Shown here: positions 17,757 through 33,200 of the stretch, one piece after another | Layout: each line of letters starts with the position of its first letter | Position numbering within the stretch: the stretch's first letter is position 1 | Assembly (NCBI GenBank): GCA_024405395.1 | Contig: JAKSOW010000016.1 | Location: 1 to 38,441, forward strand | Length of the DNA: 38,441 nt | DNA from: Kiritimatiellia bacterium | Lineage (GTDB): Bacteria > Verrucomicrobiota > Kiritimatiellia > RFP12 > UBA1067 | Direction of reading: 5' to 3' | Position numbers and translations under genes: made by a program | Notes under the pieces: model-generated | What the model saw: only the letters and a program-made list of their open reading frames with translations | Database searches by the model: none | What the model was told of the DNA's origin: nothing

Positions 17757-17776
17757 TTGTTCACTTTTCTGAACAA
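17757..17776. promoter_or_regulatory. Dyad operator, site A (exosortase operon)
   Basis: Perfect palindrome TTGTTCA-CTTTTC-TGAACAA. It is the same 7-6-7 dyad as at 25628, 26907 and 29331. Here 33 bases separate it from the -10 element at 17810, against 25 bases at three other promoters. It lies just downstream of the last polysaccharide gene and upstream of the split exosortase. Confidence 0.85.
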
Positions 17777-17784
17777 TTCGACAA

Positions 17785-17807
17785 CTGGCTGGGGGCCGGT
17801 TTTTTTT
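17785..17807 (+). terminator. Intrinsic terminator of the polysaccharide cluster
   Basis: CTGGC-TGGGG-GCCGG forms a 5-bp stem (one G-T pair) directly followed by eight T residues. It stands 47 bases after the GT4 stop, between operator A and the -10 of the next operon. The stem is short but GC-rich and the T-tract is strong. Confidence 0.6.
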
Positions 17808-17815
17808 GGTATAAT
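17807..17815 (+). promoter_or_regulatory. Extended -10 promoter of the exosortase operon
   Basis: TGGTATAAT is a perfect extended -10. No consensus -35 is found 16-18 bases upstream, where terminator sequence lies. The expected start of transcription, about 7 bases after the hexamer, falls at or next to the ATG at 17822, so the message is probably leaderless. Confidence 0.7.
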
Positions 17816-17821
17816 ATGGCC

Positions 17822-18808
17822 ATGAACGAGCAACAAACAGGCGGTGTGCCGCCCCGCAATAAACTGAAACTGTGCCTTCTCGCCGTGGCGGCGGTGCCGT
17901 TTGTGGTGAAATTCGCCTATTTGAATCAGGCTTGGGTCTCTTCGCCTGTGGATCGGGCACGCTTGGGATTGTGGGGTTCGGCGGCGTTGCTGTTTGCCGT
18001 CGTGGCGATGATCTTCAAGCTGGTCAAGCGCTTCCCCACGGTCAAGCCGCTGGTTCAGTCGCGCTCATTGAAGGTTCTGCCGCTGATGGTGCTGATGTAT
18101 GTGGTGGGGCTCGTGCTCGACATCAACGCCGTTCAGCTTGTGGCTTCAGTGGGCATCCTGTGGTCGGCCGCATGGGCGCTGTACGGGCGCGAGGCCGGGC
18201 TTCTGCTGGTCCCGGCGGCGGCTTGTGCCATCATGGCCGTCCCGGGTTCATCCTATTGGTTGGGCAAGGCGGTGTCAGGTCTCACGGCACCTTTGTCGGT
18301 TGCCTATACGCCATCCTTCAGCGCAAAGTCTCAGGTGGGATATATCGGCAGCGAAATACCGGCCAATGACGCCATGAGCCGTTTTTTCCGTACGTCGAAG
18401 GCTCGCCAGTTCCGTTATGCGTCGCGCAGCAACGAAGTGGCTGTGTTGGCGGTGCAAATCGGCAAGGACATCCACGAAGTGCATCCGGCCACGCATTGTT
18501 TGCGGTCGTCAGGATGGTCGATTCTCTCCGAGGAACTGCGGGATGTGGCGTTGCCTGGCTGCGAAAAGCCGATTTCGATGACGGAGGCGTTGGCCTCGAA
18601 TGGCTCGGGACGTCATCTGCTGATGTGGGTGTGGTATTCTTCGGAGAAGGAATCCACGGGCAGCTTCATCCGCTTCCGTCGTCTTTATTCCGCTGATGTT
18701 CCGTGGCGCACCTATCAGGTGACGACCTATGTCGGCGATCATGACGACATCGAAGCGGCACGTCGCACGATGGCGGCGTTCCTGTCGGCCAGGAAGGATG
18801 CCCGGTGA
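17822..18808 (+). CDS. Exosortase N-terminal half fused to an EpsI-like domain
   Basis: 328 residues from ATG 17822. An in-frame ATG at 17816 overlaps the -10 region and would precede the predicted transcript. Residues ~15-145 hold about five hydrophobic helices (LKVLPLMVLMYVVGLVLDINAVQL, SVGILWSAAWALYGREAGLLLVP), resembling the first, non-catalytic half of an exosortase. Residues ~150-328 resemble EpsI, the protein found next to or fused after exosortases: HPATHCLRSSGW (C226) is the EpsI-type H-x4-C-x4-GW motif, and the rest contains LLMWVWYSSE. The next gene has the missing catalytic half. In usual systems EpsI follows the catalytic half; here it follows the N-terminal half. Confidence 0.72.
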   Translation: MNEQQTGGVPPRNKLKLCLLAVAAVPFVVKFAYLNQAWVSSPVDRARLGLWGSAALLFAVVAMIFKLVKRFPTVKPLVQSRSLKVLPLMVLMYVVGLVLDINAVQLVASVGILWSAAWALYGREAGLLLVPAAACAIMAVPGSSYWLGKAVSGLTAPLSVAYTPSFSAKSQVGYIGSEIPANDAMSRFFRTSKARQFRYASRSNEVAVLAVQIGKDIHEVHPATHCLRSSGWSILSEELRDVALPGCEKPISMTEALASNGSGRHLLMWVWYSSEKESTGSFIRFRRLYSADVPWRTYQVTTYVGDHDDIEAARRTMAAFLSARKDAR

Positions 18809-19275
18809 TTGAATCGCTGACATTGGCGCTAAGCTATCCGTTGCGCCTCATGGCGACCTATGGCGCTGTTGGCATCCTGAAGCTCTGCGGCGTTGCGGTC
18901 ACGGCGGACCGTACTCTCATCACGGTGGGGGCTGACGGTTCGGGCATCGCGGTGACGGATGCCTGCAGCGGCATTGAGCAGCTCTTCGCCTTGGTGCTCA
19001 TCGGTGCGGTCTTTGCGTGGATGATGCAGCGGTCTTTGGTCTTTCGTGCAGTGCATTGGGCCTGCATTCTGCCTTCGCTGGTGCTGGCGAATACGCTGCG
19101 GTTGGTCGTGACGGTGGCGCTGTACCTGGCGTATGGCGATGTGATTCTCGGCAATGCCTGGCATCATGGGCTTGGCTATGCGCAAAGCGTGCTGGTTCTG
19201 GTGTTCCTCTGGCTTTTCGGGAAGGGACTCCGGCTGGCTGATGAACCCGCTGCAGACAAGGTGGTGACCGCATGA
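18805..19275 (+). CDS. Exosortase catalytic half (short exosortase/archaeosortase)
   Basis: 156 residues from GTG 18805, overlapping the previous stop as GTGA. DACSGIEQLFAL (C54), LANTLRLVVTV (R99) and WHHGLGYAQ (H120/H121) are the three conserved Cys, Arg and His motifs of exosortases in the right order, each in or next to hydrophobic helices (about four). Exosortases sit in the inner membrane and cleave C-terminal PEP-CTERM signals of exported proteins. At 156 residues it is much shorter than the usual ~280 and lacks the N-terminal helices, which appear to be supplied by the upstream gene. It overlaps the next signalling gene (ATGA). Confidence 0.85.
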   Translation: MIESLTLALSYPLRLMATYGAVGILKLCGVAVTADRTLITVGADGSGIAVTDACSGIEQLFALVLIGAVFAWMMQRSLVFRAVHWACILPSLVLANTLRLVVTVALYLAYGDVILGNAWHHGLGYAQSVLVLVFLWLFGKGLRLADEPAADKVVTA

Positions 19276-20912
19276 TCTACGAGAATGAAGGACGGGTCCT
19301 GCTGCTTGACGACGAACGTCTGGTTCGCTTTACGATTTCGGCCTGGCTGAAGGCTTCGCATTTCGAAGTCACGGCGGTGGCCAGCGCGGAAGAGGCACTT
19401 GCGGAACTCAAGAAGGGCGGCTATGACGCTGTGCTGTCGGACGTGATGCTGGGTGTCGTCGACGGCTTCATGTTCCGCGACACCGTGCGCGGCTTCAACA
19501 AGAATATTCCGATCATCTTTCTGACCGCACTCGTCAATTCCCCCACCAACCGTCTGCTGGAGAAGGTCACGGCCGACGTCAATTCCTACTACGCGGCGAA
19601 GAATTCGCGGCGAGAATATCTGCTGGGGCGCCTGCGGCAGGCCATTGCCGCCTATCGGGCGGAACGGGAGTCGACGGCGCTGAAGAGCGCAATGGTCAAG
19701 AACCTCAACATTGCCGCCCGTGTGCAGAATGCCCTGCTGCCGCAGATCATGCGCTACGATGCTAATGTCTTCTACAGCGTCTTCTGGCGTCCGCAGGCCG
19801 TCGTGAGCGGAGATCTGTTCTGCTGGTTCCCGCAATCTGACGATTCGGTCGTCTTCATTCTGGGCGACATCGCGGGGCATGGCACGCCGGCTGCGCTGGC
19901 GATGACCGCCGTGATGGCGCATCTCAAGAGCCTGAGCGAGTCGGGCGGCGTGAGGGCTCATAAGCCGCATCAGATCTGCCAGGAGATTGACGGCTATCTC
20001 CGCAGCAATCTCCGTGACATCACCTACATGGCGGGAACCGTGGTTGTGGTCAATTTCCGCAAGAGGCTTGTGCGTTACATGAATGCGGGTGGACTGGAGC
20101 CGTTGTGTGTGCGGCGCAGCGATGGCGCCTACCTGGAGCTCAACCCGGAGAAGCGTGGCGGCGTGCCCATGGGGCTTGTGGACGGCACGGTCTATTCGGA
20201 GGACGACGTCGTCGAGGCCGATCTGCCGGAGGATGCGCTGCTTTGCCTCTACTCTGACGGCTTTGTCGATCTGACGACTGACCTGCAGGGCGAGAATCGC
20301 ATGCCCAGGGACATGTTCTTGGAGGTCGTCGGCGAGCTTGTGCGCGGGGCCAGCGGCACAAGTGACATTGGCTCGATCCCGTATCGCCTTGCGTCGGTGA
20401 TGAAGGACATGGGCTATGTGCATGCTCAGGACGATGAGACCTTCTGCATCATCGGCGCGTCGCTCGCGAATGAGGCGCGCTTTGTCTCTTCGGTGCCGCT
20501 GAAGGAGGCGCAGTCGGTAAATGAGCTGATTGACCGCGCGTCGCAGTGGGCCTTGGCGCGAGAGTATTCGGATGACGTCGTTGCGCGTCTTGAATTGCTG
20601 CTGAGCGAACACCTCGAGAATATCCGCAAGCATGGCCTTGATGATGACGAGCTCAGCCGGGAGGTGGCTGTTCTCGAGATGCGGCCGGCCGGTGACAACC
20701 TGGAGATTCTTGCCTGGGATCGGGGCGAAGCCTACGAAGGGGACTTCTCGGAATTTGCGCCGCATCCGGACTTGACCCTGGATGTTCAGAACGACAACAT
20801 GGCGACAAGTGGACGGGGCCTTGCGATTGTCCGCAAGATCTGCCGCCGAGTTTCCTATGATCGTTTTGAGGGGCTCAACAAATTTACATTTACGCTAGGT
20901 GTGTGGGAGTGA
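19272..20912 (+). CDS. REC / SpoIIE-type PP2C phosphatase / HATPase signalling protein
   Basis: 546 residues in three parts. Residues ~1-125: receiver domain with phosphoacceptor D57 (LSDVM), T in FLTAL and K in AAKNS. Residues ~145-400: SpoIIE/RsbU PP2C phosphatase with IAARVQNALLPQ, VSGDLFCWF, GDIAGHGTPAAL and YSDGFVDLT. Residues ~410-546: HATPase of the RsbW/SpoIIAB anti-sigma type with SEHLENIRKHG (N-box) and GRGLAIVRKICRR (G2). So phosphatase and kinase of a partner switch sit in one receiver-controlled chain. It could dephosphorylate or phosphorylate the STAS protein at 13172. ATGA overlap links it to the exosortase gene. Confidence 0.92.
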   Translation: MIYENEGRVLLLDDERLVRFTISAWLKASHFEVTAVASAEEALAELKKGGYDAVLSDVMLGVVDGFMFRDTVRGFNKNIPIIFLTALVNSPTNRLLEKVTADVNSYYAAKNSRREYLLGRLRQAIAAYRAERESTALKSAMVKNLNIAARVQNALLPQIMRYDANVFYSVFWRPQAVVSGDLFCWFPQSDDSVVFILGDIAGHGTPAALAMTAVMAHLKSLSESGGVRAHKPHQICQEIDGYLRSNLRDITYMAGTVVVVNFRKRLVRYMNAGGLEPLCVRRSDGAYLELNPEKRGGVPMGLVDGTVYSEDDVVEADLPEDALLCLYSDGFVDLTTDLQGENRMPRDMFLEVVGELVRGASGTSDIGSIPYRLASVMKDMGYVHAQDDETFCIIGASLANEARFVSSVPLKEAQSVNELIDRASQWALAREYSDDVVARLELLLSEHLENIRKHGLDDDELSREVAVLEMRPAGDNLEILAWDRGEAYEGDFSEFAPHPDLTLDVQNDNMATSGRGLAIVRKICRRVSYDRFEGLNKFTFTLGVWE

Positions 20913-20916
20913 CGCC

Positions 20917-21234
20917 ATGATGAAGGAATGTGCCAGAAAATGGCTTTCTGAGCAGTTCGGTGATGCCGAGGACATAATCAAGGAAGTCTGGACCGAATAT
21001 CTCAGCACGACGACCGAGCGCATTGAGGAGGCTCGGGCAGCGCTGGCGGCTTTTGACTTTCCGTTGCTGGACAGTGTGGCGCATCGCCTCAAGGGCAATG
21101 CGCTGATGGTTGGCGACCAGCCTTCGGCTGTCGCCGCCATCGAGTTGCGCGATGCCGCCAAGGCGTCCGAGTCTGATGCCGCCGCCAAGGCTATTGAGAC
21201 GCTTGCGGAACTTGATCGGGAAAACCACGCATGA
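20917..21234 (+). CDS. Hpt domain phosphotransfer protein
   Basis: 105 residues from ATG 20917, with GGGAG about 8 bases upstream; GTG 20899 inside the previous gene is less likely. One histidine phosphotransfer domain: LDSVAHRLKGNALMVG has the H-x-LKG motif with H56. Such proteins shuttle phosphate between receiver domains. It lies between a receiver-phosphatase and a hybrid kinase ending in a receiver. It therefore probably relays phosphate from the kinase's receiver to D57 of the SpoIIE-type protein. Its stop overlaps the kinase start (ATGA). Confidence 0.9.
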   Translation: MMKECARKWLSEQFGDAEDIIKEVWTEYLSTTTERIEEARAALAAFDFPLLDSVAHRLKGNALMVGDQPSAVAAIELRDAAKASESDAAAKAIETLAELDRENHA

Positions 21235-23804
21235 ATCTCCCAGAATCCTCCAAGAAGATTCTGGAAAAGAGCCTGGGCGGAAACGAGGCCCTGGAACAGG
21301 CCGAGCGGGCGCAGGCCGTCCTTGAGAACATCTTTGTCGGCGTCTGGTCCGTTGAGCTGGACGAAGGCAAGCCGCCGCGCATGTATGGTGATGCCAGAAT
21401 GCGGGAGCTGTTGGGCGTGGCCGACAAGCAGCTGACGGCGGAGGAGCTCTACCATGCCTGGTTTGACCGCATCCATCCGGATTATGTTGCGCTGGTCGAG
21501 GACGCGGTCCGTCAGATGGTGGATGGGAAGCACGCGGAGGTTCGCTATCCCTGGATCCATCCGACGTTGGGCGAAATGATGGTTCGTTGCGGCGGCCGTC
21601 GGAGTCCCTTCTACAAAGGGGGCGTGCGCGTCTCCGGGGTCCATCGCGACGTCTCGGCCCTTTTGAGTAATGCCTTGACGGCCCATGCGGATGAGACTCC
21701 TGTCGAAGCCAAGGTCGAGACGCGCCCCTCCCTCTTTACGCGCGACTGGGAGAGCCGCGTCAGCCGGCAGTTCTGGGAAGAGATAAGCCGCATGACGCCC
21801 GACCCCATCTTCGTCCTGGACGCGGAGAACGAGTGGCGTTGCTGTTACAGCAATCCGGCACACCAGGACCTTGTTGGCGTTGATCCCACCAATCGGACCC
21901 TCCAGGAGAATTTTGGCTCCAGCCTTGGTGCCTCCATGATGCGCGAGAATGAGAAGGTTCTTGCGGCGGGAGCTCCTGTGCAGGCGTTTGAGGCCCTCTA
22001 CAACGCCACCAAGGGCGGGCGGCATTACCGTATCGCTAAGGTTCCGCTGGTGTTTCCGGATGGCCATCGGTATGTGCTTGGGCACGGAACGGATGTCACG
22101 GAGCTTTATCTGGCGCATCTGCAGACGCAATGCCACTTCGCCGTGCAGGACGCGGTGAACCGTGATGAAGACGCCTCCACGGCCCTGGAGAAGGTGCTGG
22201 ACGCCGTGCTGGAGACGACGCCCTGGATTCGGCGGATCCTCTATCGGAGCAGGAACACGACACAATCCTCGATCTGCTGCCGCAAGGAAGAGGGGCGCAT
22301 GGCCGCAGTTCGTGTGCAGGACGGACTGTTGGAGGATCCCGCCTGGTGTGCCTATCTGGACGGCTTGGACCCCAAGTCCGTAAAGATCTGTCCAGACGTC
22401 TCGCAGATTCTTCCCAAGGCCATGGACTATGGTCTGCATGCCTGTGTTTCTTTCTGCATTGAGCACAAGGGTGCGTTGCTGGGGCAGATGTCGGTGTTCC
22501 TTGATCGTCGTGCACCGCGTGAGAGCGATGTGGACGCGCTGGTGGCGATTCTCTCCGACGTGAGCCTCTTCTATTATCGCCGCTATCGGGCGCGTCTCGA
22601 GATCGCCGAACTGGAGCGCGAGCGAAGGGCGCTGGAGGAACGCCGCCGTCTTGAGATGGAGGCGCTTCTCAAGGAGTCCCAGGCGGCCGAGCGGGCCAAG
22701 AGCTTCTTCCTGGCGTCGATGTCGCATGAGATCCGCACGCCGCTCAATGCGCTTCTGGGCCTTGCCGCGGAATTGGACCATGATGACGTCACCAAGGAGC
22801 GATGCCGCGAGTATGCCCGGACCATTGGCACGGCGGGCCGGGCGCTTCTCAATCTCATCAACGACGTCCTGGACATGAGCAAGCTGGAGGCCGGGCAGAT
22901 GCGGATCGTTCCGGCCGAAACGGACATCGGTGCGCTGTTTGAAGAATGTCGCACGATCTTCGGGCCGAATTGCGTCAAGAGCGGACTGACGATGAAGGTC
23001 TCGGTCGCTTCGGACATGCCGGTGGTCTCTCTGGACCGTGGCCGTATTCGGCAGATCCTCTTCAATCTGCTGGGCAATGCCATCAAGTTTACGCCAGCGG
23101 GTTCGATTACCCTTTCGGCGACAATCCGCCCAATCGCCGAAAATCTCGGCGAACTGCATCTTGCGGTGGCGGATACGGGTGTGGGCATTGCGGCGGAAGA
23201 CCGTGAGCGCGTGTTTGGCATGTTTGAGCAGGCTTCGGGTCTGCGCGGCACGCGCGTGGCGCAGTCAGGAACGGGGTTGGGGCTTGCGCTTTGCCGCCGT
23301 CTGGTGGAGTGCATGGGCGGCAAGATCACGCTTGAGAGCGAATTGGGTAAAGGCTCTGTCTTCACGGTAGAGCTGCCGAATGTGCCGATCATTTCGCGCA
23401 AGGAGAAGGGGCCGCAGGGCTTGGCGGCGAACACGAAGCCTGCGGTGTCCTATGCCGGCCGTGTGCTGGTTGTGGATGATGTGGCGCTCAACCTGATGGT
23501 CATCAAGCTGATGCTGCAGCGCGCCGGCATTGATCATGTGGTGGCGTCCTCGGCGGACAAGGCCCTGGAGATTCTTGAAGGGGATCCACACGTGACGGCG
23601 GTGTTGACGGACTTGTGGATGCCGCACATGTCAGGCGTCGAACTGGCGACGCACATTCGCGGGCGGTATGCGGGCAGAGACCTGAAGATTGCCGCCGTCA
23701 CTGCGGATACCGACATCGTGGGCTCGGACGACGCCAAGGTCTTTGACGCCGTCCTGCTCAAGCCGGTGACGGTGTCGCAGATCTGTAAATTCCTTGGCGT
23801 ATAA
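21231..23804 (+). CDS. Hybrid sensor histidine kinase (PAS-PAS-GAF-like-HisKA-HATPase-REC)
   Basis: 857 residues, no clear membrane helix, so probably a cytosolic sensor. Order: PAS-like ~25-145 (YGDARMRELLGV, FDRIHPDY), PAS-like ~180-290 (MTPDPIFVLDAEN, YVLGHGTDVTELY), GAF-like ~295-455 containing several Cys (SSICCRKEEG), a charged coiled coil ~455-490, HisKA with H499 (MSHEIRTPLN), HATPase with NLLGNAIKFTP, DTGVGIAAED and GTGLGLALCRRL, and a receiver at ~745-857 with D794 (TDLWMPHMSG) and K in LLKPV. The start overlaps the Hpt stop. It would sense an internal signal and feed the Hpt and SpoIIE-type partners. It ends the operon at a bidirectional terminator. Confidence 0.93.
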   Translation: MNLPESSKKILEKSLGGNEALEQAERAQAVLENIFVGVWSVELDEGKPPRMYGDARMRELLGVADKQLTAEELYHAWFDRIHPDYVALVEDAVRQMVDGKHAEVRYPWIHPTLGEMMVRCGGRRSPFYKGGVRVSGVHRDVSALLSNALTAHADETPVEAKVETRPSLFTRDWESRVSRQFWEEISRMTPDPIFVLDAENEWRCCYSNPAHQDLVGVDPTNRTLQENFGSSLGASMMRENEKVLAAGAPVQAFEALYNATKGGRHYRIAKVPLVFPDGHRYVLGHGTDVTELYLAHLQTQCHFAVQDAVNRDEDASTALEKVLDAVLETTPWIRRILYRSRNTTQSSICCRKEEGRMAAVRVQDGLLEDPAWCAYLDGLDPKSVKICPDVSQILPKAMDYGLHACVSFCIEHKGALLGQMSVFLDRRAPRESDVDALVAILSDVSLFYYRRYRARLEIAELERERRALEERRRLEMEALLKESQAAERAKSFFLASMSHEIRTPLNALLGLAAELDHDDVTKERCREYARTIGTAGRALLNLINDVLDMSKLEAGQMRIVPAETDIGALFEECRTIFGPNCVKSGLTMKVSVASDMPVVSLDRGRIRQILFNLLGNAIKFTPAGSITLSATIRPIAENLGELHLAVADTGVGIAAEDRERVFGMFEQASGLRGTRVAQSGTGLGLALCRRLVECMGGKITLESELGKGSVFTVELPNVPIISRKEKGPQGLAANTKPAVSYAGRVLVVDDVALNLMVIKLMLQRAGIDHVVASSADKALEILEGDPHVTAVLTDLWMPHMSGVELATHIRGRYAGRDLKIAAVTADTDIVGSDDAKVFDAVLLKPVTVSQICKFLGV

Positions 23805-23840
23805 AAAGAAACCGTCCACCGTGTGGTGGGCGGTTCTTTC
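23803..23840. terminator. Bidirectional intrinsic terminator
   Basis: AACCGTCCACC-GTGT-GGTGGGCGGTT forms an 11-bp stem with one G-T pair at 23810-23835. It is flanked by AAAAAG on the left and TCTTTC on the right, so both strands give a U-rich tail. It lies between the convergent hybrid kinase (+) and the minus-strand repeat protein, starting at the kinase stop codon. Confidence 0.85.
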
Positions 23841-23862
23841 ATTTCCTGCTCGCAGAGCGTGC

Positions 23863-24978
23863 TCAGTTGCGGCTGTTCTGCTGTTTGCGGATGATCTGGA
23901 GACCGCGATCCTCCGGGAACAGCTTCAGCGCATTGTCCAACTCGCTACTCAGCAGCACGCCGCGGCTCGCCTTGGCCAGAATGGAAAGGCGCAGAATGTC
24001 CACATCGGGACGCTGCGGATCGTAGATGGCGTTGGTCAGCCGCTGAATGTGCTCAAGCGTGATCTTCTCCGGAAAATGTTCGGACAGATAACGTTTGACG
24101 ACGGCACGCGCCTGTTCCAGCAACCTGGAATCGGACTCTTCGGAGTTGACGATCTCGTCAAACGCGCGTTCGACAGCCTCTGCGTCATCACCATTGGCGG
24201 CACATTCAAGGGCCAGAAAGCGCGCCAACGGGGACTTTACCTCGCCATTAAGGGCCGTGATGGCCTCAGACAGAAGCGCCTCATCGCCCCTTTGCCAAGC
24301 CGACAGGGCATCGCAATAATGGGCCAGCACAATTCCCAGCCGACCCGGCGTCCCCAGCGCGCGCGCGCGGCACTCCTCAAGAATGTCCGTGCGGTGTGCC
24401 CAAGCCGACAATTCGGCGGTCTGCTGAATCAGGGCGGCGCTGGTGAAGCGCGTAAGGTACGTGCGTGCCAGCGTAAGGGCCTGATCGGGGCGGCTCGCCT
24501 TGAGCTGCGCCTGGATGAGGAAGGGGGTCGCGGCGAAATAGTTGAGGTTTGTCGCCTCGGCAAAAGTCGTCACTGCGAGCGTATTGGAGCCTGCGCGAGC
24601 GAGATCCACACCCTTTTTGATGAGTGCCTCGCATGCGAGCTCGTCCTTGGTAAAGGCAAAGGCAACAGCGCCACTGTTGGTGGTTGAGGCCAACGTCTCG
24701 AAATCGCGCACGCGCACAAGCGCATGCTGGTATTCCGCCTGATAGCGCTGCTCAAATGGATTGAGGGAAATGAGGCGCCGATAAAGCTTCACCGCGGCGG
24801 GGTGATTGCCTTCCCGGCAGGCCCTTTCCGCGCTGGCGCGCACGGCATCCTCATTGTTGACGTCCTCGCCCCGATTGTAGACGAGCAACAGAACGGTGAA
24901 CGTCGTAAAGGAAGCGAGAAGCACTGCCCCCGTAATCAGGAGCAGTGCCAGCTTTACCTTATGGTTTTTGGACTTCAC
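23863..24978 (-). CDS. Membrane-anchored TPR-like protein
   Basis: 371 residues. The start is GTG at 24978, overlapping the upstream stop as GTGA. KVKLALLLITGAVLLASFTTFTVLLLVY is one N-terminal membrane helix with a Lys-rich cytoplasmic side, so the rest is probably periplasmic. The body has tetratricopeptide-like helical pairs: RACREGNHPAAVKLYRRLISLNPF, DLARAGSNTLAVTTFAEATNLNYF and LKASRPDQALTLARTYLTRF. TPR proteins are frequent partners of exosortase and polysaccharide export systems, and this one is coupled to a PEP-CTERM-like gene. A scaffold role in sorting or assembly is an inference. Confidence 0.75.
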   Translation of the reverse strand: MKSKNHKVKLALLLITGAVLLASFTTFTVLLLVYNRGEDVNNEDAVRASAERACREGNHPAAVKLYRRLISLNPFEQRYQAEYQHALVRVRDFETLASTTNSGAVAFAFTKDELACEALIKKGVDLARAGSNTLAVTTFAEATNLNYFAATPFLIQAQLKASRPDQALTLARTYLTRFTSAALIQQTAELSAWAHRTDILEECRARALGTPGRLGIVLAHYCDALSAWQRGDEALLSEAITALNGEVKSPLARFLALECAANGDDAEAVERAFDEIVNSEESDSRLLEQARAVVKRYLSEHFPEKITLEHIQRLTNAIYDPQRPDVDILRLSILAKASRGVLLSSELDNALKLFPEDRGLQIIRKQQNSRN

Positions 24979-25562
24979 TTCGCCTTCTTCTTTCCGCGAA
25001 GCTTGGCCACGCCAGCCCCAAGACCGCCAAGCGCGAGCATCGCCAACGCGCCAGGAAGCGGCTGACCAGCCGGCGCGTCACCGCTGCCGCTGCCCGCCGC
25101 AGTGGTCGTCACGTTGTTGATGGGCATCCACTCGTCCTTGCCGCCGCCGTTCTTGTCGAAGGCGATGTAGGTCGTTCCGTGCTTGGTCTCAAAGCTCCAG
25201 TCACGCACCAGACGGCCATTGTTGCGGTCCAGATAGAACCCCACGCGGTCACCGGCCTTGAGCGCGCCCAGGTCGACCTCACCGTGGTTGATCTGCTTGC
25301 CGAACATGGCGTTGTCGTCAGCCGCCTCGTTGATGTACTTCTTCAGGGCGTCTCCTTCGAGACCTTCCGGATAGACGAAGAAACCGACCTTGCCGCTGTT
25401 GCCGATCGACTTGAAGTCTGAGGTGAACTTGAAGGAATCAAGATCTTCGTTGATCTGGATGTATGAATACCCCTTGGCGTCATTGACGAGGGCGTACGCA
25501 TCTTCTGCCTTGGCTGCCATAAGGGTCAGGGCCGCTGCTGCTACTAAGATTGCTTTATTCAT
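24975..25562 (-). CDS. PEP-CTERM-like secreted protein with a PLP sorting motif
   Basis: 195 residues. MNKAILVAAAALTLMAAKAEDA is a signal peptide. The mature part is Asp/Gly-rich and probably beta-rich, with a Ser/Gly/Ala linker. The C-terminus is tripartite like a PEP-CTERM signal: motif GQPLPGA, hydrophobic helix LAMLALGGLGAGVA, then basic tail KLRGKKKAK. The motif reads PLP rather than PEP, as in known VPLPA-type variants. It is the likely substrate of the exosortase at 17822-19275. AAAGGAGAG precedes the ATG. Its promoter carries the shared dyad operator. No catalytic motif is recognised. Confidence 0.8.
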   Translation of the reverse strand: MNKAILVAAAALTLMAAKAEDAYALVNDAKGYSYIQINEDLDSFKFTSDFKSIGNSGKVGFFVYPEGLEGDALKKYINEAADDNAMFGKQINHGEVDLGALKAGDRVGFYLDRNNGRLVRDWSFETKHGTTYIAFDKNGGGKDEWMPINNVTTTAAGSGSGDAPAGQPLPGALAMLALGGLGAGVAKLRGKKKAK

Positions 25563-25596
25563 GATTTGACTCTCCTTTGTTGTGTTGACGGCGCAT

Positions 25597-25605
25597 ATTG
25601 TAGCA
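25597..25605 (-). promoter_or_regulatory. Extended -10 promoter of the PEP-CTERM-like gene
   Basis: On the minus strand the sequence is TGCTACAAT, an extended -10. The dyad operator at 25628-25647 ends exactly 25 bases upstream of the hexamer, the same distance as at 26907 and 29331. The -35 position holds only TTCCAC, so an activator is plausible. The leader would be about 28 bases. Confidence 0.65.
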
Positions 25606-25627
25606 CATCCTGCCTGCGCGTGGAACG

Positions 25628-25647
25628 TTGTTCACAAAACTGAACAA
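25628..25647. promoter_or_regulatory. Dyad operator, site B (divergent promoter)
   Basis: Perfect palindrome TTGTTCA-CAAAAC-TGAACAA between divergent genes. It lies 25 bases upstream of the minus-strand -10 and overlaps the -35 (TTCACA) of the plus-strand ATPase promoter. A bound protein could thus activate one direction and block the other. Confidence 0.88.
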
Positions 25648-25659
25648 TTATGTTATACT
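25631..25659 (+). promoter_or_regulatory. Sigma-70-like promoter of the ATPase gene
   Basis: TTCACA (25631-25636), a 17-base spacer, then TGT-TATACT (-10 at 25654-25659, extended form). The -35 lies inside operator B. The predicted start at about 25666 leaves 1-2 bases before the ATG at 25668, and no ribosome binding site is seen, so the transcript is probably leaderless. Confidence 0.65.
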
Positions 25660-25667
25660 GTGGGCAC

Positions 25668-26603
25668 ATGGCAAAAAGGCAGACAGTGCAGGAATGGCTA
25701 TCGTCCAGGCGCGGAAAGAGCAGCGTGAAGGTGCTCTGCGGCATTCGCGGCGTGGGCAAGACGCGGGCATTGGCCGCCTGGCGAGATGACTTGATAGCCG
25801 GGGGATATCCGGAGGAGCGCATTGTCTGCATTGACGCCGAAGAGCCGATCTTGCGCCGTCTGGTGACGGCCGATGACGTCTTGCTCTATTTGTCGACGCA
25901 GTTGCCGCCCTCCGGGCCGGTGACGCTGCTGATTGAGGAGCCGACTTCCTTCCGTGATTATGAAACGGCTTTGGGCGAGCTTCTGGGGCAGCGCCGAATT
26001 GACATCTATCTGACGATTTCTTCGCGACAGCTGGCGACAGGCGGGCTCTCCGATTATCTGCGTGGAGCAGTTGATGTCTATGAGCTCGTTCCGCCCAAAG
26101 AGGGCAGCTCTGGGCTGGATGAAGCCTCTTCGCGCGCGCGATGGAACGAGATATTGTTGCGTGATGTGTTGCCGGCACGGGGCGTGGGAGAGGCCAATAT
26201 CGCCGAGCGTCTGGCGGCTTATCTGGTGGATTCGGTGGGTGATCCGATTTCACTGCGTTCGATAGGTTCCGCCATTTCGCCCAAGGACAAGCGTTTTTCG
26301 CCCAATACCATTGAGGCGTACCTTACGGCATTTGAGAATGCCTACGTGCTGGAGCGGTGCTATTTGTGGGACAAGGTCGCGGAAGAGCCGTTCAAGCGCG
26401 AATACCGGGTCTTCTTCATGGATCCGGCTCTCTGCCGCGCCCGATTCGGCATAGCGCCTGATTTCGAGCGCCGAACCGCGATGAACGAGGAATGGCTGGC
26501 GCTACGTGCCCAATATGAACATGTCTATTTGACCCGAGATGAAAAAAAAGGTGGTCGACTGGTCTTCATGGGGCGTGACGGCGTGCGCCGCCGCAGTCTG
26601 TAA
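25668..26603 (+). CDS. P-loop ATPase (AAA_14-like)
   Basis: 311 residues from ATG 25668; an in-frame ATG at 25650 lies upstream of the predicted transcript start. GIRGVGKTRALAAW (~residues 25-38) is the Walker A motif and VTLLIEEPTSF (~85) the Walker B. A sensor-like ISSRQLATGGLSDYLRG follows, as in the AAA_14 plus DUF4143 ATPases. The C-terminal part resembles the DUF4143 start (LRDVLPARGV, FSPNTIEAYLTAFENAYVLERCYLWD) but is shorter than usual. Its biochemical role is unknown in this broad family. It shares the intergenic operator with the PEP-CTERM-like gene. A strong terminator follows. Confidence 0.72.
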   Translation: MAKRQTVQEWLSSRRGKSSVKVLCGIRGVGKTRALAAWRDDLIAGGYPEERIVCIDAEEPILRRLVTADDVLLYLSTQLPPSGPVTLLIEEPTSFRDYETALGELLGQRRIDIYLTISSRQLATGGLSDYLRGAVDVYELVPPKEGSSGLDEASSRARWNEILLRDVLPARGVGEANIAERLAAYLVDSVGDPISLRSIGSAISPKDKRFSPNTIEAYLTAFENAYVLERCYLWDKVAEEPFKREYRVFFMDPALCRARFGIAPDFERRTAMNEEWLALRAQYEHVYLTRDEKKGGRLVFMGRDGVRRRSL

Positions 26604-26656
26604 CGGGACACCGAATCCGCAATCCTTACATATATATTGTCTTGGCTGAAGCCGTC

Positions 26657-26692
26657 ACCCCCTCATCTGTTCGCAGATGGGGGTTTGTTTTT
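26657..26692 (+). terminator. Intrinsic terminator after the ATPase gene
   Basis: ACCCCC-TC-ATCTG and CAGATGGGGGT pair through 11 bp with a 2-base bulge, closed by a TTCG tetraloop, and are followed by TTTGTTTTT. This is a strong rho-independent terminator about 55 bases after the stop. Confidence 0.88.
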
Positions 26693-26906
26693 GCATGCAA
26701 GGCATTGTCTTGAGTCGACCAATCACTATGGCCGCTTCTCCCGATTACCTTAAGGGAATTTTCGTGAATGGAGATGAAGAGGCAGGACGAGAAAGTGCAG
26801 TGAAGGCAGTTCTGCATACACTGACGAAAAGGCAAAACGTGCAATATGTCGTCGTGTGATGTCATTGTTTCGTTTATGGCTTGATTGAAGCCATTGGAAA
26901 AGGATT
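26693..26906. other. Intergenic stretch without a supported gene
   Basis: Short open frames of 60-79 codons occur on both strands but lack a ribosome binding site, family resemblance or consistent codon use. The sequence is moderately AT-rich. Apart from the terminator on its left and operator C on its right I see nothing definable. Confidence 0.5.
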
Positions 26907-26926
26907 TTGTTCATATTTTTGGACAA
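26907..26926. promoter_or_regulatory. Dyad operator, site C
   Basis: TTGTTCA-TATTTT-TGGACAA, one mismatch from the perfect dyad. The spacer is identical to that of site D. Exactly 25 bases separate it from the -10 at 26952, the same as at site D and at site B on the minus strand. Confidence 0.82.
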
Positions 26927-26951
26927 GGACAAGGGGCGGCGACTTAAGTTG

Positions 26952-26957
26952 TATACT
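26952..26957 (+). promoter_or_regulatory. -10 element of the first secreted-protein operon
   Basis: TATACT followed by ATG, matching the arrangement at 29376 base for base in spacing. The -35 position lacks a consensus hexamer. Transcription would start near 26964, about 25 bases before the ATG. Confidence 0.65.
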
Positions 26958-26988
26958 ATGCCCCGATTGCCCGAACGAAGGATTGAAA

Positions 26989-27780
26989 ATGACGAAAAAC
27001 ATCAAGAAAATGCTTGCGACCGCCCTGGTGCTCTTGGGCGTGGCGGTTGTTGGCGCTGCGCAGGACGATGCGCTGATTGCTTTTTCGACAAAGGGTCCCG
27101 ATTCCTATGCCGATGGTACGCCTGTTCTTGAAGGTGAGGTCTATGCGATCGTGTGGGCGCGAAACGGCTCTACGTTCCAGGGCGTTGATCTGAATGGCCA
27201 GGTTGTGGATGCCGCCAACAATGAAGTGATCGTGGCGTTGCCGCTCGCGAAGGCCAAGCGCAACGGCGATGTGCATTGTCCGCTGACGCTTTTCCAGATT
27301 GACGCGTCCTTTGCCGCCGCCCATGCGGATGGCGAGTTTTCGTTGGTGCTCTTCGATACGCGCGTGGCGGATGGCCAGGGCGGCCTCAAGGTGTCCGGCA
27401 ACGCGCATCAGGTGCAGGGGTGGGGCGAAGTCGCCAAGAGCCGTGTGAAGGCGATCGGCGCCAGCCTCGTCGCCCTTACGAATGTGGGTGACGCCAATGG
27501 TACGATTGCGGCGAATGCCACGGCGGTACCGGCGGACGAGACGATTGCGCAGCCCAAGATCACGGGCATCAGCGTGGCCAACGGCTTTGTCAAACTTACG
27601 GTGGCGTGCACGGATCCGCGTCTCCTCTACAATGTGGCGGCGGGCGATGCGCCCAACCGCCTGACCAATCGCCACGCGGCCCCGGCCCCGATTCAGGGCG
27701 GCAAGGTGCGGATGCGCGAAGTGATCGTCGTCCTGCCGATCCGCGACGACCAGAAGTTCTTCAAGATTGTGCGTAACTGA
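26989..27780 (+). CDS. Small secreted protein, paralog of 29413
   Basis: 263 residues from ATG 26989, with GAAGGA upstream; an upstream in-frame start is excluded because it precedes the promoter. KKMLATALVLLGVAVVGAAQ is a signal peptide. The mature protein begins DDALIAFSTKGPDSYADGTPV and has a beta-rich first half (YAIVWARNG, GVDLNGQVVD, CPLTLFQIDASFAAAHADGEFSLVLFDTRVA). The second half (ITGISVANGFVKLTVACTDPRLLYNVAAG ... FFKIVRN) has the look of a C-terminal domain for reporting or anchoring. I do not know the family. About two thirds of residues match the paralog at 29413 by eye. No PEP-CTERM signal is present. Confidence 0.82.
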   Translation: MTKNIKKMLATALVLLGVAVVGAAQDDALIAFSTKGPDSYADGTPVLEGEVYAIVWARNGSTFQGVDLNGQVVDAANNEVIVALPLAKAKRNGDVHCPLTLFQIDASFAAAHADGEFSLVLFDTRVADGQGGLKVSGNAHQVQGWGEVAKSRVKAIGASLVALTNVGDANGTIAANATAVPADETIAQPKITGISVANGFVKLTVACTDPRLLYNVAAGDAPNRLTNRHAAPAPIQGGKVRMREVIVVLPIRDDQKFFKIVRN

Positions 27781-27787
27781 TTCCACA

Positions 27788-28447
27788 ATGAGAGCCCTCG
27801 CTGTAATATTGGTTATCTTCTTGACATCTGCATGCATGTTGCATGCAGATGTGGGGGATAATCTTATCGTATGGATGGTGGCTGATCCTTTGATTGAGGA
27901 AGTTAACGGGGGGGAGCCGGTCAAAATGGCCGACCTCTTCGGGCGTGGAGGCGAAGCCGAGGGTGTTGGGGTTAATGCTGTTCGCGTGAAGATGACGGGC
28001 GCAGACGGCATGATGACATACCTTAATCTCGACAGCGAGGAAGGTTGGCAATCGTGGGTTGAATTGCCGGGACTTGAGAAGCGGGGTGGAACGTGGACTG
28101 AAGTTTGGAGCGCAGGCCCGACATTTGCTGATATCTCTGGATATACGGCCACAGCAGGCGATGCCTCGTTGTCTTTCATGATTGAAATTGGAAACTATTC
28201 GAATGATGGAAATTGGATTGTATTGGCAATTTCAGAGTCAGCAACTCTGGGTGAGTTGAAGTCACAAGGCTATGTGCTCGCAAGTGCGTTGGATATGCAA
28301 CAGGATATTGAGTGGACAGGTGGCCATTACTCGATTCCCGAGCCCACAAGCGGTTTGCTGATTTTGGTCGGTGGTGCGTTGTTGGCCTTGCGGCGAAAGC
28401 GGTGTGCGTACGGCGAGGATGGCTCTAAACGGGAGACTGATGCATGA
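27788..28447 (+). CDS. PEP-CTERM protein
   Basis: 219 residues from ATG 27788, 7 bases after the paralog stop; no ribosome binding site is clear and TTG 27767 is an alternative. MRALAVILVIFLTSACMLHADV is a signal peptide. The C-terminus is a classical PEP-CTERM signal: SIPEPTSG, helix LLILVGGALLAL, basic RRKR. An extra tail of about 14 residues (CAYGEDGSKRETDA) follows the basic patch, which is unusual. The middle is Gly/Asp-rich and probably beta-structured. It is a likely exosortase substrate. Codon use is less GC-rich than in the paralogs around it. The stop overlaps the next gene (ATGA). Confidence 0.85.
   Translation: MRALAVILVIFLTSACMLHADVGDNLIVWMVADPLIEEVNGGEPVKMADLFGRGGEAEGVGVNAVRVKMTGADGMMTYLNLDSEEGWQSWVELPGLEKRGGTWTEVWSAGPTFADISGYTATAGDASLSFMIEIGNYSNDGNWIVLAISESATLGELKSQGYVLASALDMQQDIEWTGGHYSIPEPTSGLLILVGGALLALRRKRCAYGEDGSKRETDA
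27824..27852. repeat. Perfect 12-bp inverted repeat inside a coding region
   Basis: ACATCTGCATGC, a 5-base loop ATGTT, then GCATGCAGATGT. It covers codons ~13-22, the end of the signal peptide of the PEP-CTERM gene. The arms match without error. No T-tract follows, so it is not a standard terminator. Confidence 0.8.
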
Positions 28448-28881
28448 AAGACTCGGGATCGATGAGGCGGACGTCCAAGAGCGACTTACAGCCCAAGCCG
28501 GAGGTACGGGCTCTGGTGGTTGATGACCAGTCTATTGCACGTCTGATTCTGCGATCCTGTCTGAAGAACGTGGGTGTGCACGACACCGTGATGAAAGAGG
28601 ATGCCAAGGAAGCGTTTGACGGTTTGGAGGGCAGTGCCGTCAATGTGATCTTCACCGATATCCAAATGCCGGGTTGGGATGGCCGGCGGTTCGTCTCCGA
28701 GGTGCGTGCCCATCGTAGCTGGTGCCAGTTGCCAGTGGTTGCAGTGAGTTCGCTGAAGGAAGATGAGCTGAATTGGCGAGAATTGGGCTTCTCGGCATAT
28801 ATGCACAAGCCCTTTACGGTTGCCGAACTGAAAGCTGTACTCGATAAGGTGTTACCCACGTATGTAGCTTCCGCGTGCTGA
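28444..28881 (+). CDS. Stand-alone receiver (CheY-like) response regulator
   Basis: 145 residues, ATG overlapping the PEP-CTERM stop (ATGA). After a ~20-residue basic leader the sequence RALVVDDQSIARLILRSCL opens a receiver domain with the acidic pair DD. FTDIQMPGWDG contains the phosphoacceptor Asp (about D77), VAVSSLKEDE the conserved Ser/Thr position and YMHKPFTVAEL the Lys. There is no output domain. It may take phosphate from the Hpt protein or hybrid kinase of the exosortase operon and act by protein contact. Coupling of a cytosolic receiver to an exported PEP-CTERM protein is unusual. Confidence 0.9.
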   Translation: MKDSGSMRRTSKSDLQPKPEVRALVVDDQSIARLILRSCLKNVGVHDTVMKEDAKEAFDGLEGSAVNVIFTDIQMPGWDGRRFVSEVRAHRSWCQLPVVAVSSLKEDELNWRELGFSAYMHKPFTVAELKAVLDKVLPTYVASAC

Positions 28882-28903
28882 GTGTGCCTGCGGAAATCGC
28901 CAA

Positions 28904-28985
28904 GGGTCTCATAAATCCCCTCAATAGGTCTCAGAATTCCCTAGCATGGGTCTCAAAAATCCCTTTTAAGGGTCTCAAAATTCCC
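28904..28985. repeat. Four tandem repeats with a 22-bp period
   Basis: Units start at 28904, 28926, 28948 and 28970. The 16-base core is GGGTCTCA-N-AA-N-TCCC (unit 2 begins AGG), separated by 6 variable bases. Each core is an imperfect dyad (GGG...CCC). The period is exactly 22 in all three steps. Candidates are a cooperative protein-binding array or the end of a lost IS21-type element; neither can be decided here. Confidence 0.85.
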
Positions 28986-29014
28986 CCTCCCAAGGCAATC
29001 CACTGTGCGATGCC

Positions 29015-29069
29015 TGCGGCATTTATGCGGCGCTAATGCGGCGCTTTTGCGGCACTTATGCGGCATTTG
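29015..29069. repeat. Five tandem repeats with an 11-bp period
   Basis: TGCGGC starts at 29015, 29026, 29037, 29048 and 29059, followed each time by five variable bases (ATTTA, GCTAA, GCTTT, ACTTA, ATTTG). The period is exactly 11. The array begins 29 bases after the 22-bp array and is not part of any supported reading frame. Confidence 0.88.
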
Positions 29070-29330
29070 TCAAATCATAATTGTTATTCTTTGAAACATA
29101 TCGCGCAAATCATGAATATTAGGGGGTGCTGGTGGAGAATGGCCGTGGACTGTCCTGCGTGTGGCGCATGAAGTACCGATTAATGGAAGGAGCCAAATAC
29201 GTGGAAGAGCCGTTTTGGGGGGAGATGTCTGCCGATCGGGTGAACAAATGATTTTTCATATATGACTTTATTCATGGAATTATACTTGTTATGTAATTTA
29301 TGGCGGTAAAAAGTGGGGGCTGATGCCAAT
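29070..29330. other. AT-rich intergenic stretch without a supported gene
   Basis: This part of the 531-base gap is AT-rich at both ends. It includes one isolated operator half-site TGAACAA (29241-29247) and a 27-codon frame (29168-29251) that I do not consider supported. No tRNA, terminator or clear promoter is seen apart from those listed. Confidence 0.5.
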
Positions 29331-29350
29331 TTGTTCATATTTTTGAACAG
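29331..29350. promoter_or_regulatory. Dyad operator, site D
   Basis: TTGTTCA-TATTTT-TGAACAG, one mismatch from the perfect dyad, with the same spacer as site C. It ends 25 bases upstream of the -10 at 29376, as at sites C and B (minus). Confidence 0.85.
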
Positions 29351-29375: not shown

Positions 29376-29381
29376 TATACT
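29376..29381 (+). promoter_or_regulatory. -10 element of the second secreted-protein operon
   Basis: TATACT followed by ATG, identical to the element at 26952. A -35 consensus is absent. Predicted start near 29388, then AAAGGAGGG (29396-29404) and the ATG at 29413, giving a leader of about 25 bases. Confidence 0.68.
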
Positions 29382-29412
29382 ATGTGTTCATTCCGAAAGG
29401 AGGGTTTTGAAT

Positions 29413-30207
29413 ATGCTGAAAAACATCAAGAATATACTGATGGCCGTGCTGGCGCTCCTGGGCGTGGCGGTCGTCCACGCGGCGCAGAACGATGCGCTGA
29501 TCGCGTTTTCCACGAAGGGCCCCGACCGCTATGCCGACGGCACGCCCGTGCAGGTTGGCGAGGCCTATGCCCTCGTGTGGTCCCGCAACGGCTTTGAATT
29601 CGCGGGTGTGGACATGAATGGCCAGGCGGTCGACCCGGCCAACAACGCGGTGGTGGTGGCGCTGCCCCTCGCGAAGGCGAAGCGCAATGGCGACGTGCAC
29701 TGCCCGCTGACGCTCTTCCAGATCGACGAGGCGTTCGCGGCGGCCCACGCCGACGGCACGTTCGCGCTGGTGCTGCTGGATACGCGTGTCGCGGGCGCGA
29801 ACGGTGCGCTCGTCGCGACCGGCAAGCTCGGCCAGGTGAACGGCTGGGGCTTCGTCGAGAAGAGCCACGTGAAGGCGATGGGCGGCTCGCTCGTCGCGGC
29901 GACGAACGCGGGCGACGCGGAGGGCCGCGCGCAGACGACGGCGACGAGTGCGGTGCCGGAGGGTGAAGACATCCCGCAGCCGAAGATCACTGGTATCAAA
30001 CTGCAGGGCGACTACGTGGTGCTGACGGTGACGGGCACGAGCCCGCGCCTCCTCTACAACATCGCCGCCGGCGCGAAGCCGGGCCACCACGCGACGCGCC
30101 ACGCGGCGGCGTGCGCGGTGCCGGGCCACGCGAACCGCGGCCACGAGATCACGATCGTCGCGCCGAAGGTCGCCGGACAGAACTTCTTCCAGGTTGTGAG
30201 GAACTGA
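29413..30207 (+). CDS. Small secreted protein, paralog of 26989
   Basis: 264 residues from ATG 29413, 8 bases after AAAGGAGGG; TTG 29407 is too close to that site. KNILMAVLALLGVAVVHAAQ is a signal peptide. The mature part NDALIAFSTKGPDRYADGTPV, GDVHCPLTLFQIDEAFAAAHADG and the C-terminal PRLLYNIAAGAKPG ... FFQVVRN follow the paralog closely, but the codons are far more GC-rich at third positions. Function unknown. It is 22 bases upstream of the giant surface protein gene, so the two are probably one operon. Its paralog likewise precedes a PEP-CTERM gene, suggesting a role tied to large exported proteins. Confidence 0.85.
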   Translation: MLKNIKNILMAVLALLGVAVVHAAQNDALIAFSTKGPDRYADGTPVQVGEAYALVWSRNGFEFAGVDMNGQAVDPANNAVVVALPLAKAKRNGDVHCPLTLFQIDEAFAAAHADGTFALVLLDTRVAGANGALVATGKLGQVNGWGFVEKSHVKAMGGSLVAATNAGDAEGRAQTTATSAVPEGEDIPQPKITGIKLQGDYVVLTVTGTSPRLLYNIAAGAKPGHHATRHAAACAVPGHANRGHEITIVAPKVAGQNFFQVVRN

Positions 30208-30229: not shown

Positions 30230-33200
30230 ATGAGAAAGTCATCCCTGTCGATTGTGTTCGCGGCACTTGCGTGCTGCGGTTTCGTGTTTAACGCACAGGC
30301 GGCGCGCTATGCAAAGTTGACTGTTACTGCTGGCGAAGGAGGTACTGTTGCGGCGAGCCAGAGCAAAAACAGCGCTGGAACCTATGGAAAGACGGCCACA
30401 ACGTCTCCAAGCTACACGAGTAACTATGGCAACCCCAGTTTGTTCACGACATACGCGTTTGCCAAGGCCGATACGGACTATGTGTTTATGGGGTGGTCAG
30501 AAAGCAAAGGGGGAACTGTGACGTCGACGGATAATCCGCTGACTGTTACGATTTCTGTCTCAAATTCAAACAACACATCGGGGAAGGCCGCTCAAGCCGC
30601 TCGTTACGCCAACTTTGCGAAGGCCGTCTGCAAGGTCGATTCTAAGCCGTATGCGGATGTTCAGCAGGCAATGAACGACATCCAGAACGGACAGACGCTC
30701 ACGCTGCTGGCCGACTTCCCGATTCCGATGGAGGTGCCGATCGCAAAGAACATCACGATCGACGGCAATGGTCACACGCTGACGCGCACGTCCGCGACCG
30801 CCAAGTTGACGATCTCCGCTGCTGTCACGCTGAAGAACATCACGGTCGATGGCCAGAATCTGGTTTCGCAGAACGCGCTGTTCGACGTGACGTCGGCGGG
30901 TACGCTGACGGTGCAGAACGGCGCGGTCATCAAGGACTGCAAGGCGACGTCCGGGAACGGCGGTGCGATTCTCAACGCCGGCACGGTCAAGATCGCAGGC
31001 GGTACGATTTCGGGTTGTTCGACGACGGGCCTGGGCGGTGCGATCTACAACAATGCCGGCACGATCACGATGACGGCCGGCACGATCGACGGCTGCTCGA
31101 GCAATGGCGGCGGTGCGATCAACCAGCAGGGGAACGGCACGACGACGATTTCGGGCGGCACGGTGAAGAACTGCACGGCCGGTACGGGCAACTCGGGCGG
31201 CGTCGCGCGCATCGTCGGCGGCACGTTCACCATCACGGGCGGTACGTTCACGGGGAACAAGAGCACGTCGAGCTCCGGCGGCGGCGCGTTCTTCCTCAAC
31301 ACGGGCACGCTGAACATCAGCGGTGGCACGATCACCGGCAACACGGTGACGGGTGCGAACGCGACGGGTGGCGCGATCTACTGCTACAGGAACATGACGG
31401 CCCTCAACTTGAGCGGTTCGCCGAAGATCACGGGTAACACGAACGCGAAGGGCGAGGCGGACAATATTGCCGTCAACGACCAGACGGCGAAGGTGGTCCA
31501 GTCCGGAAATTTGACGTCGGGCGCGGAGATCGGCATCCACTTCCCGGCCGAGGATCCGGATGGGGTTGTTTTTGGTGCCACGACTTCCTCCTACACGGGT
31601 GCGGAGAAGTTCTTCTATGACGGCGACACGACGCTGACGGGCGTGAAGCAGGGCACGGCGCTCGCGTGGCCGGTGCGCGCGGTCGCGCAGATCGGCGCCA
31701 CGAAGTATCGCACCCTGGCGGAGTCCGTGGCCGCCGCGAAGGACGGCGACACGATCGAGCTCCTGACGAACGTCAAGCTCGACGCGGACGTGACGATCGA
31801 CAAGAACGTCACGCTCACCTCGGCCGCGGGCAAGAGCTACACGCTCACGCGTACGGCGGACACGCAGCTCAATGTCGCGACGGGGGCACTCACGCTGACG
31901 AACCTTGCGGTTGACGGTGCGCAGATGGCGGCGACGAAGCCGCTCGTGAACGTGGCCGCGGGGGCGACGCTCAATTTGACGACGGGTGCGCGCGTGACGA
32001 GCGCGACGGCGGGCGGCATCGCGGCCGCCGGCACGGTCAACGTTTCGGGGAATCCGGTTGTCACGGGCAACACGGCGGCGGGCAAGGCGAGCGATCTCGT
32101 CCCCGCGTCGGCAAATGTCCTGAACCTCGTCGGCGACTTCACGGGCTCGATCGGCGTCCTGTGGCCGCGGGACGTGGCGGGCAAGGAGCTTTCGGGCCGT
32201 CCGTTCGGCGCGGCGACGACGTTCGCGGGTGCGGAGAAGTTCTTCTTCGACGGCCAGTCGGGCGTCATGGGTGCGATTTCCGAAGACGGGCGTCTCGCCT
32301 GGCCGGAGATCAAGGAAGAGGTCATCCCGATGGGCGATGACGCCGTCGTCTATGAAGGGGCATCGTCGGCGACGACGCTCCCCGATGGTGATGTCGTGCT
32401 CGTCTTCGACGATCCGTCGAAGCTCAATACCTTCACGCTGCCGAAGAACGCCAAGGCGCGCATCCTCGTCGTCGGCGGCGGCGGTGCGGGCGGTTCGATC
32501 GGCATGGACGTCAATGGCGCGGCCGGCGGCGGCGGTGCGGGCGGCTTCATCGACCGCGAGCAGACGCTGGATCCGGGGACGTACACGGTCCAGCTCGGCG
32601 CGGGCGGCAAGCGCGTGCAGACGGTGGTGCAGTCCTGGGTCGGCGATGACGGCGACTACTCCTGCATCAAGCTGGTCGATGACATCGTCGCGCTCGCGAA
32701 GGGCGGCGGCGGCGGCGGTACCGTCAAGATCGGCGGCAACGGAACGGAAGGCGGTTCCGGCGGCGGCGGCGCCTGGTACGGCAAGGCCCTCGTGGGCGGT
32801 CTCGGCACGGAAGGCCAGGGACGTGCCGGCGGTACGCCGCAGGATCAGGACCACGGCGGCGGCGGCGGTGGCGCGGCCATGGCCGGCGGCGTGAATGGCA
32901 CGGCCGGTACGGGCAAGACGAGCGACATCACGGGTGAGGTGGTGACATACGCGCAGGGTGGCCGCGGCGGCGACAAGGCGGATGCCGCGTACGAGGCGAA
33001 GGCCGGCGCGGGCGCGGGCTTCGGCGGCGACGGTGCGGTCAAGGGCTTCGGCGGCGCGGGCGCGGATGGTCTCGTGATCGTGCGCATCCACAAGCTCTTC
33101 GACTATGTCAAGGTTCCCTATCCCGAATATGTGGATGACTTCGTCTGGGAGTCGGGGAAGACGCGCACGGCCTTCGATCTCAACGCGCAGAACGCAGAAT

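Follow-up and report, generated by a model that had tools for sequence, protein, structure and literature searches.

A palindromic dyad in promoters of surface-export genes of an uncultured Kiritimatiellia bacterium, and a short AAA_14 ATPase as its candidate reader

The window, i.e., the whole 38,441-nucleotide stretch of DNA analyzed here, contains an exosortase locus followed by signaling and secreted-protein genes. On the plus strand, a gene encoding an EpsI-domain protein with an exosortase-like N-terminal part (17816-18808) precedes one for a 156-aa protein (18805-19275) that matches only the C-terminal half of the exosortase (EpsH) family (PF09721, E = 9.7e-23, model positions 116-252). 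The latter meets the criterion of an EpsH-family exosortase gene for a PEP-CTERM/exosortase system. The exosortase is apparently split in two genes (17816-19275), and the same two separate genes were found in G069, G115, G088, and G077. Downstream on the same strand are the genes for a protein with receiver, SpoIIE phosphatase, and HATPase_c_2 domains (19272-20912), an Hpt phosphotransfer protein (20899-21234), and a hybrid histidine kinase with PAS, HisKA, HATPase, and receiver domains (21231-23804). A STAS-domain protein (13172-13504) shares the window with the SpoIIE protein, and a partner-switching branch is possible by analogy with SiaA-type biofilm control.

The minus strand carries sec195 (24975-25562), encoding a secreted 195-aa protein with a PEP-CTERM-like tail, and the second gene of its operon, which encodes a TPR-like protein (23863-24978) and is kept beside the exosortase in relatives. 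Divergent from sec195 is a plus-strand gene for a 311-aa AAA_14 ATPase with a degenerate, truncated DUF4143 region (25668-26603). The remaining plus-strand genes encode the secreted protein Sec263 (26989-27780), a PEP-CTERM protein (27767-28447), a receiver-only response regulator (28444-28881), whose homolog in G079 lies between two dyad-driven sec genes, the secreted protein Sec266 (29407-30207), and a giant adhesin-like protein (30230-38441) of 2,737 aa that runs off the window. The PEP-CTERM sorting signal on 27767-28447 met the TIGR02595 criterion (22.5 bits versus a cutoff of 16), and its PF07589 score was slightly below the cutoff. No match to Sec263 was found in Pfam or NCBIfam; the sec263/sec266 family occurs in 89 of the 162 genomes of the order, often in multiple copies.

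A pattern scan of the window found four copies of a 20-base palindrome, TTGTTCA-N6-TGAACAA, which we call the dyad, against 0.002 expected from base composition at up to one mismatch. The copy at 17757-17776 is perfect and lies upstream of the exosortase operon, 33 bp from the -10 element TGGTATAAT (17810-17815). That at 25628-25647, also perfect, lies 25 bp from the minus-strand -10 of sec195, TGCTACAAT (25602-25597), and overlaps the -35 position of the plus-strand ATPase promoter, the -10 of which is TGTTATACT (25654-25659). The copies at 26907-26926 and 29331-29350, each with one mismatch, precede sec263 and sec266, respectively, at 25 bp from TATACT (26952-26957 and 29376-29381). There was no fifth dyad with up to two mismatches in the window, and the sole further site, at 38384, had three. 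The earlier note, made from the letters of the window, had claimed these four dyads with these mismatches, no other copy, and a 25-bp separation from the -10 in three cases, all of which held (the three being 26907, 29331, and 25628 as measured on the minus strand). It is to be corrected in that the dyad at 25628 serves two divergent promoters, with just 6 bp separating it from the ATPase -10.

By eye, a terminator-like GC hairpin followed by T8 was seen at 17783-17806, between the 17757 dyad and the exosortase -10. It apparently terminates the upstream glycosyltransferase operon, and RNA folding favored other pairings. An Rfam search of the window gave no match. In several genomes, the genes for the ATPase and the exosortase seem to be leaderless, with the -10 only 6 to 8 bases 5′ of the ATG (25654-25668 for the ATPase and 17810-17822 for the exosortase, plus L193 and L196).

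Across the 4.04-Mb genome, eight dyads were found at up to one mismatch, about 40 times the 0.21 expected by base composition, and a reversed-pattern control gave no match in the whole genome at the same threshold. Allowing two mismatches added eight sites versus six in the control, i.e., noise, and the dyad set is therefore small and sharply bounded. Seven of the eight lie in promoters of surface, polysaccharide, or secretion genes. Outside the window, the minus-strand dyad at C13:32620, 25 bp upstream of TGGTACAAT, heads a run of unknown-family genes that includes one for a CesT-type secretion chaperone; that at C135:27611 precedes an exopolysaccharide (EPS) operon encoding a lipoprotein, a sugar transferase, a nucleotidyltransferase/hexapeptide protein, chain-length and outer-membrane exopolysaccharide proteins, and a polymerase-like protein (names beyond the Pfam matches are our own reading of the sequences); and that at C225:25970 lies 24 bp upstream of TGTTATACT and a small secreted protein gene. 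The eighth, C157:32549, is in coding sequence, within tsaD, and is probably a chance match. The targets are thus the exosortase operon, the PEP-CTERM-like substrate/ATPase pair, two secreted-protein operons, the EPS operon, the CesT-chaperone secretion cluster, and the small secreted protein, and it is very likely that one small regulon of surface export and decoration genes lies behind the dyads. The earlier proposal of shared export-regulon promoters accordingly held, with at least three more outside the window. It also survived the test set for it, in which an equal frequency of the dyad in coding or housekeeping regions would have counted against it.

In the C13 cluster (L037:2-10266), headed by its dyad, the CesT-type chaperone gene is accompanied by large unknown-family genes, and the OTU-like motif GDGNHCFF occurs. 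The large genes are likely to encode chaperone-assisted secretion substrates.

The gaps between dyad and -10 at the eight promoters of this genome were 25, 25, 25, 25, 24, 32, 33, and 6 bp, falling within 24 to 26 bp at five of them and being mostly exactly 25 bp in relatives. Most of the -10 elements were extended (TGnTAYAMT), the exceptions being those at 26907 and 29331, and no recognizable -35 hexamer was found in the promoters with a gap of 25 bp. With the -10 placed at -12, the dyad center falls at about -47.5, directly against RNA polymerase. An activator geometry, as had been claimed, is supported by the constant spacing and the lack of a -35, although the direction of regulation is an inference that rests on geometry alone. 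The activator model fits less neatly at the exosortase (33 bp) and EPS (32 bp) promoters, the latter of which has a fair -35 as well (TTGACT-17-TACAAT).

In other genera, the same dyad with the 25-bp spacing was found before homologous genes. Scanning about 85,000 species for the dyad followed at 24 to 26 bp by TAYAMT returned 32 stretches, of which the only coherent ones came from two rumen-type MAGs, JAEEZC and JAUNMP; their sites are the same as those of the family members G122 and G079 and precede homologs (52 to 89%) of sec263/sec266. A third site in G079 precedes a homolog of the PEP-CTERM protein. The dyad lies 26 bp from the -10 of a sec195-TPR-exosortase operon in G036, precedes two sec195 homologs in G088, and in degenerate form precedes the sec gene of G129. 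The homology of the target in each of these relatives to a target here speaks for functional sites. At the distant sec266 paralogs, the dyad was absent except at the nearest homologs, and scanning the relatives for the exact motif at one mismatch gave mostly chance matches outside the dyad genomes. No dyad was found upstream of the exosortase-EpsI orthologs of G069, G077, and G088 (C381), since the operon starts elsewhere there. Separately, the dyad-bearing sec266 of G079 (L082) is 89% identical to the one here despite the different genera, most other homologs being near 40%, and this identity suggests that the target and its promoter may have moved together in a recent horizontal transfer.

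The ATPase beside the 25628 dyad has an AAA_14 domain (PF13173, E = 6e-11) with the expected Walker A motif, GIRGVGKT, and lacks a complete DUF4143 domain (PF13635, 26.2 bits against a cutoff of 28.1; positions 2-96 of 160). It is homologous to the AAA_14 plus DUF4143 ATPases of the COG1373 type across the AAA core and the following helical region. Unlike those, its subfamily is only about 310 aa long, has lost about 45 residues between the core and the helices as well as the C-terminal DUF4143 end with its ExDFV...YxQV motif, has degenerate Walker B motifs, and is located at dyads and phosphorelay genes. Orthologs with at least 39% identity were found only in G036, G122, G088, G129, and G086. 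A profile search of 346 genomes of the class identified 11 members in eight genomes (E < 1e-117), well separated from generic DUF4143 ATPases (E > 1e-36), and no relatives were found in the viral contigs searched.

The ATPase subfamily and the dyad co-occur. An unbiased scan of the 162 genomes for TTGNNCA-N6-TGNNCAA-N24..26-TAYAMT matched only G000 (the present genome), G079, G122, G120, and G089, and the control for it gave no match. Four of these five genomes have the subfamily, versus eight of 162 overall (P = 1.2e-5; P = 2.0e-4 without G000), although these values treat related genomes as independent, the samples are few, and the genomes are incomplete. The exception is G079, a 91% complete MAG with dyads and no subfamily member. 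A 7-6-7 dyad lies at or next to the ATPase gene in G000, G088 (two loci), G086, G129, and G120, some of these dyads having been found by inspecting the neighborhood of the ATPase genes; the G122a and G036 ATPase genes lack their own dyad. A TTGTGCA dyad, with one further mismatch in G088, separates the divergent genes for the ATPase and a hybrid histidine kinase in G086 and G088 (C278) and lies 24 bp from the kinase -10. The same layout in G129 has the dyad TTGTGCA...CGCACAA, the right half of which also occurs at its sec gene. A perfect TTGCTCA dyad lies 25 bp upstream of the ATPase -10 in G120, and a perfect TTGTGCA dyad lies upstream of a surface protein gene in G089.

In the ATPase tree, G000, G036, G122a, and G088a group with TTGTTCA and G129, G086, and G088b with TTGTGCA, while the group of G089 and G120 is mixed, these two being sister sequences with different dyad types. 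The dyad type thus largely follows the ATPase clade rather than the genus or species, because both clades occur in G088 with a separate dyad type each, and genus g5 has several types. Phosphorelay genes are adjacent as well, with a hybrid kinase adjoining the ATPase gene in G086, G088, and G129, a receiver-only protein following an ATPase paralog in G122 (G122b), and, in G036, homologs of the receiver-SpoIIE protein (56%), Hpt (59%, immediately 5′ of the ATPase gene), and the ATPase (66%) in this order before an EPS operon.

The earlier note's claim that no DNA-binding regulator is recognizable here holds poorly, as the ATPase is a good candidate. The subfamily retains a helix-turn-helix-like pattern, SLRxIxxxxSPxxxxxSPNTxxAYLxAL, and a winged helix or other DNA-binding domain is inferred from this sequence pattern only and is structurally unproven. 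AlphaFold models of single sequences of the ATPase and of its C-terminal fragment were too poor to use (pLDDT 51 and 55), and PDB sequence and fold (Foldseek) searches with the ATPase gave nothing significant. There are no binding data, and we only lean toward the ATPase (25668-26603) as the best candidate dyad binder. In the proposed mechanism, a dimeric protein just upstream of the -35 position would activate promoters that have only a -10, usually extended. The ATPase would read the dyads in this way and switch on the exosortase, PEP-CTERM-type substrates, and sec263/sec266 with the giant adhesins, as well as exopolysaccharide synthesis and the CesT-chaperone secretion cluster. Where the dyad lies over the -35, at the divergent ATPase gene, it would act as its own repressor, and the linked hybrid kinase/Hpt/receiver phosphorelay, a connection that is likewise inferred, would control it.

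The most serious rival, which we find less likely, accepts the regulon and has a conventional regulator encoded elsewhere bind the dyad, the ATPase being only a regulon member or signaling partner. The dyads of G079 that occur without the ATPase, the lack of a proven DNA-binding fold in it, and the completeness of the MAG, only 84%, such that a regulator gene could be missing, all favor this view. Against it, the dyad variants track the ATPase clades, genomes with the dyad and genomes with the ATPase coincide, and the dyad lies at the ATPase gene itself in G120 and G086. A PrsR-type response regulator of the NtrC family, with a Fis-like domain and acting through sigma-54, is very unlikely. Such a regulator is known for PEP-CTERM genes in Proteobacteria (PMC1569441), and HTH_8 proteins are present in the genome (C112, C136, and C271). 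The TyrR box has a TGT-N12-ACA layout, the same as that of the dyad. However, HTH_8 proteins occur just as much in G001, a genome without dyad promoters of this kind, and we rejected HTH_8/NtrC regulators as dyad binders on this ground; no HTH_8 match was found in the window and none linked to the sites was seen. Sigma-54 was rejected for want of a -24/-12 element, the best match downstream of the dyads having four mismatches and being no better than in random 200-nt stretches, and the -10s are sigma-70-like.

Two further rivals are all but excluded. The LexA box of Verrucomicrobia is reported to be TGTTC-N4-GAACA, so that dyads read as LexA/SOS boxes would have an identical pentamer half-site. 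All dyads have N8 between the pentamers, however, and LexA was rejected on this spacing; the genome and the control each yielded a single N4 site, as expected by chance, and that of the genome does not coincide with a dyad. The dyad targets are not repair genes. As for a chance or RNA-hairpin artifact, the 17757 dyad is able to pair in RNA, but the dyad would lie outside the transcript that it controls because it is upstream of the -10, and chance is contradicted by the roughly 40-fold excess, the promoter placement, the fixed spacing, and the conservation across genera.

The closest known system is the PrsK/PrsR regulon (Haft 2006, PMC1569441), in which a 17-nt motif ending in TTTACA lies about 63 nt upstream of a sigma-54 -24/-12 element and NtrC-type PrsR is the regulator. 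Both have a common cis element before PEP-CTERM genes, tied to the exosortase, exopolysaccharide genes, and a kinase, and both were found via the same co-occurrence logic. Here, in contrast, the element is a 20-bp dyad 25 bp upstream of a sigma-70-like -10 and the candidate regulator an AAA_14-derived ATPase; neither a sigma-54 element nor an NtrC-type PrsR beside the exosortase locus is present. According to the same study, other phyla lack the proteobacterial motif, and more motifs and regulators awaited discovery. In the literature searched, that motif was the only PEP-CTERM/exosortase cis element that we found described; the dyad adds a distinct one from another phylum, with coordinates, geometry, targets, and a testable regulator. 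It places protein sorting and exopolysaccharide under one program with giant adhesins and a chaperone-assisted secretion cluster in uncultured gut bacteria.

By analogy, MalT/STAND-type regulators would act alike, with an NTPase core and DNA-binding helices activating sigma-70 promoters, although their NTPase family and DNA-binding domain differ from those of the ATPase. A bolder reading, which could equally well prove right or wrong, is that this trimmed branch of the widespread AAA_14/DUF4143 ATPases has turned into a family of sequence-specific transcription regulators wired to phosphorelays, acting at 7-6-7 dyads 25 bp before an extended -10, with operators diversified by clade. In the literature searched, no DUF4143 protein was described as a transcription regulator, and the DUF4143 mention found concerns the Thermus Argonaute. 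Binding by the ATPase, if it occurs, would assign a role to one branch of an extensive uncharacterized ATPase family and define a new class of ATP-dependent transcription regulators. Another near-dyad, TTATTCATTnnnATGAACAA, was observed once per genome in several relatives (G001:C117:1670, G002:C118:7044, G007, G017, G008, and G088).
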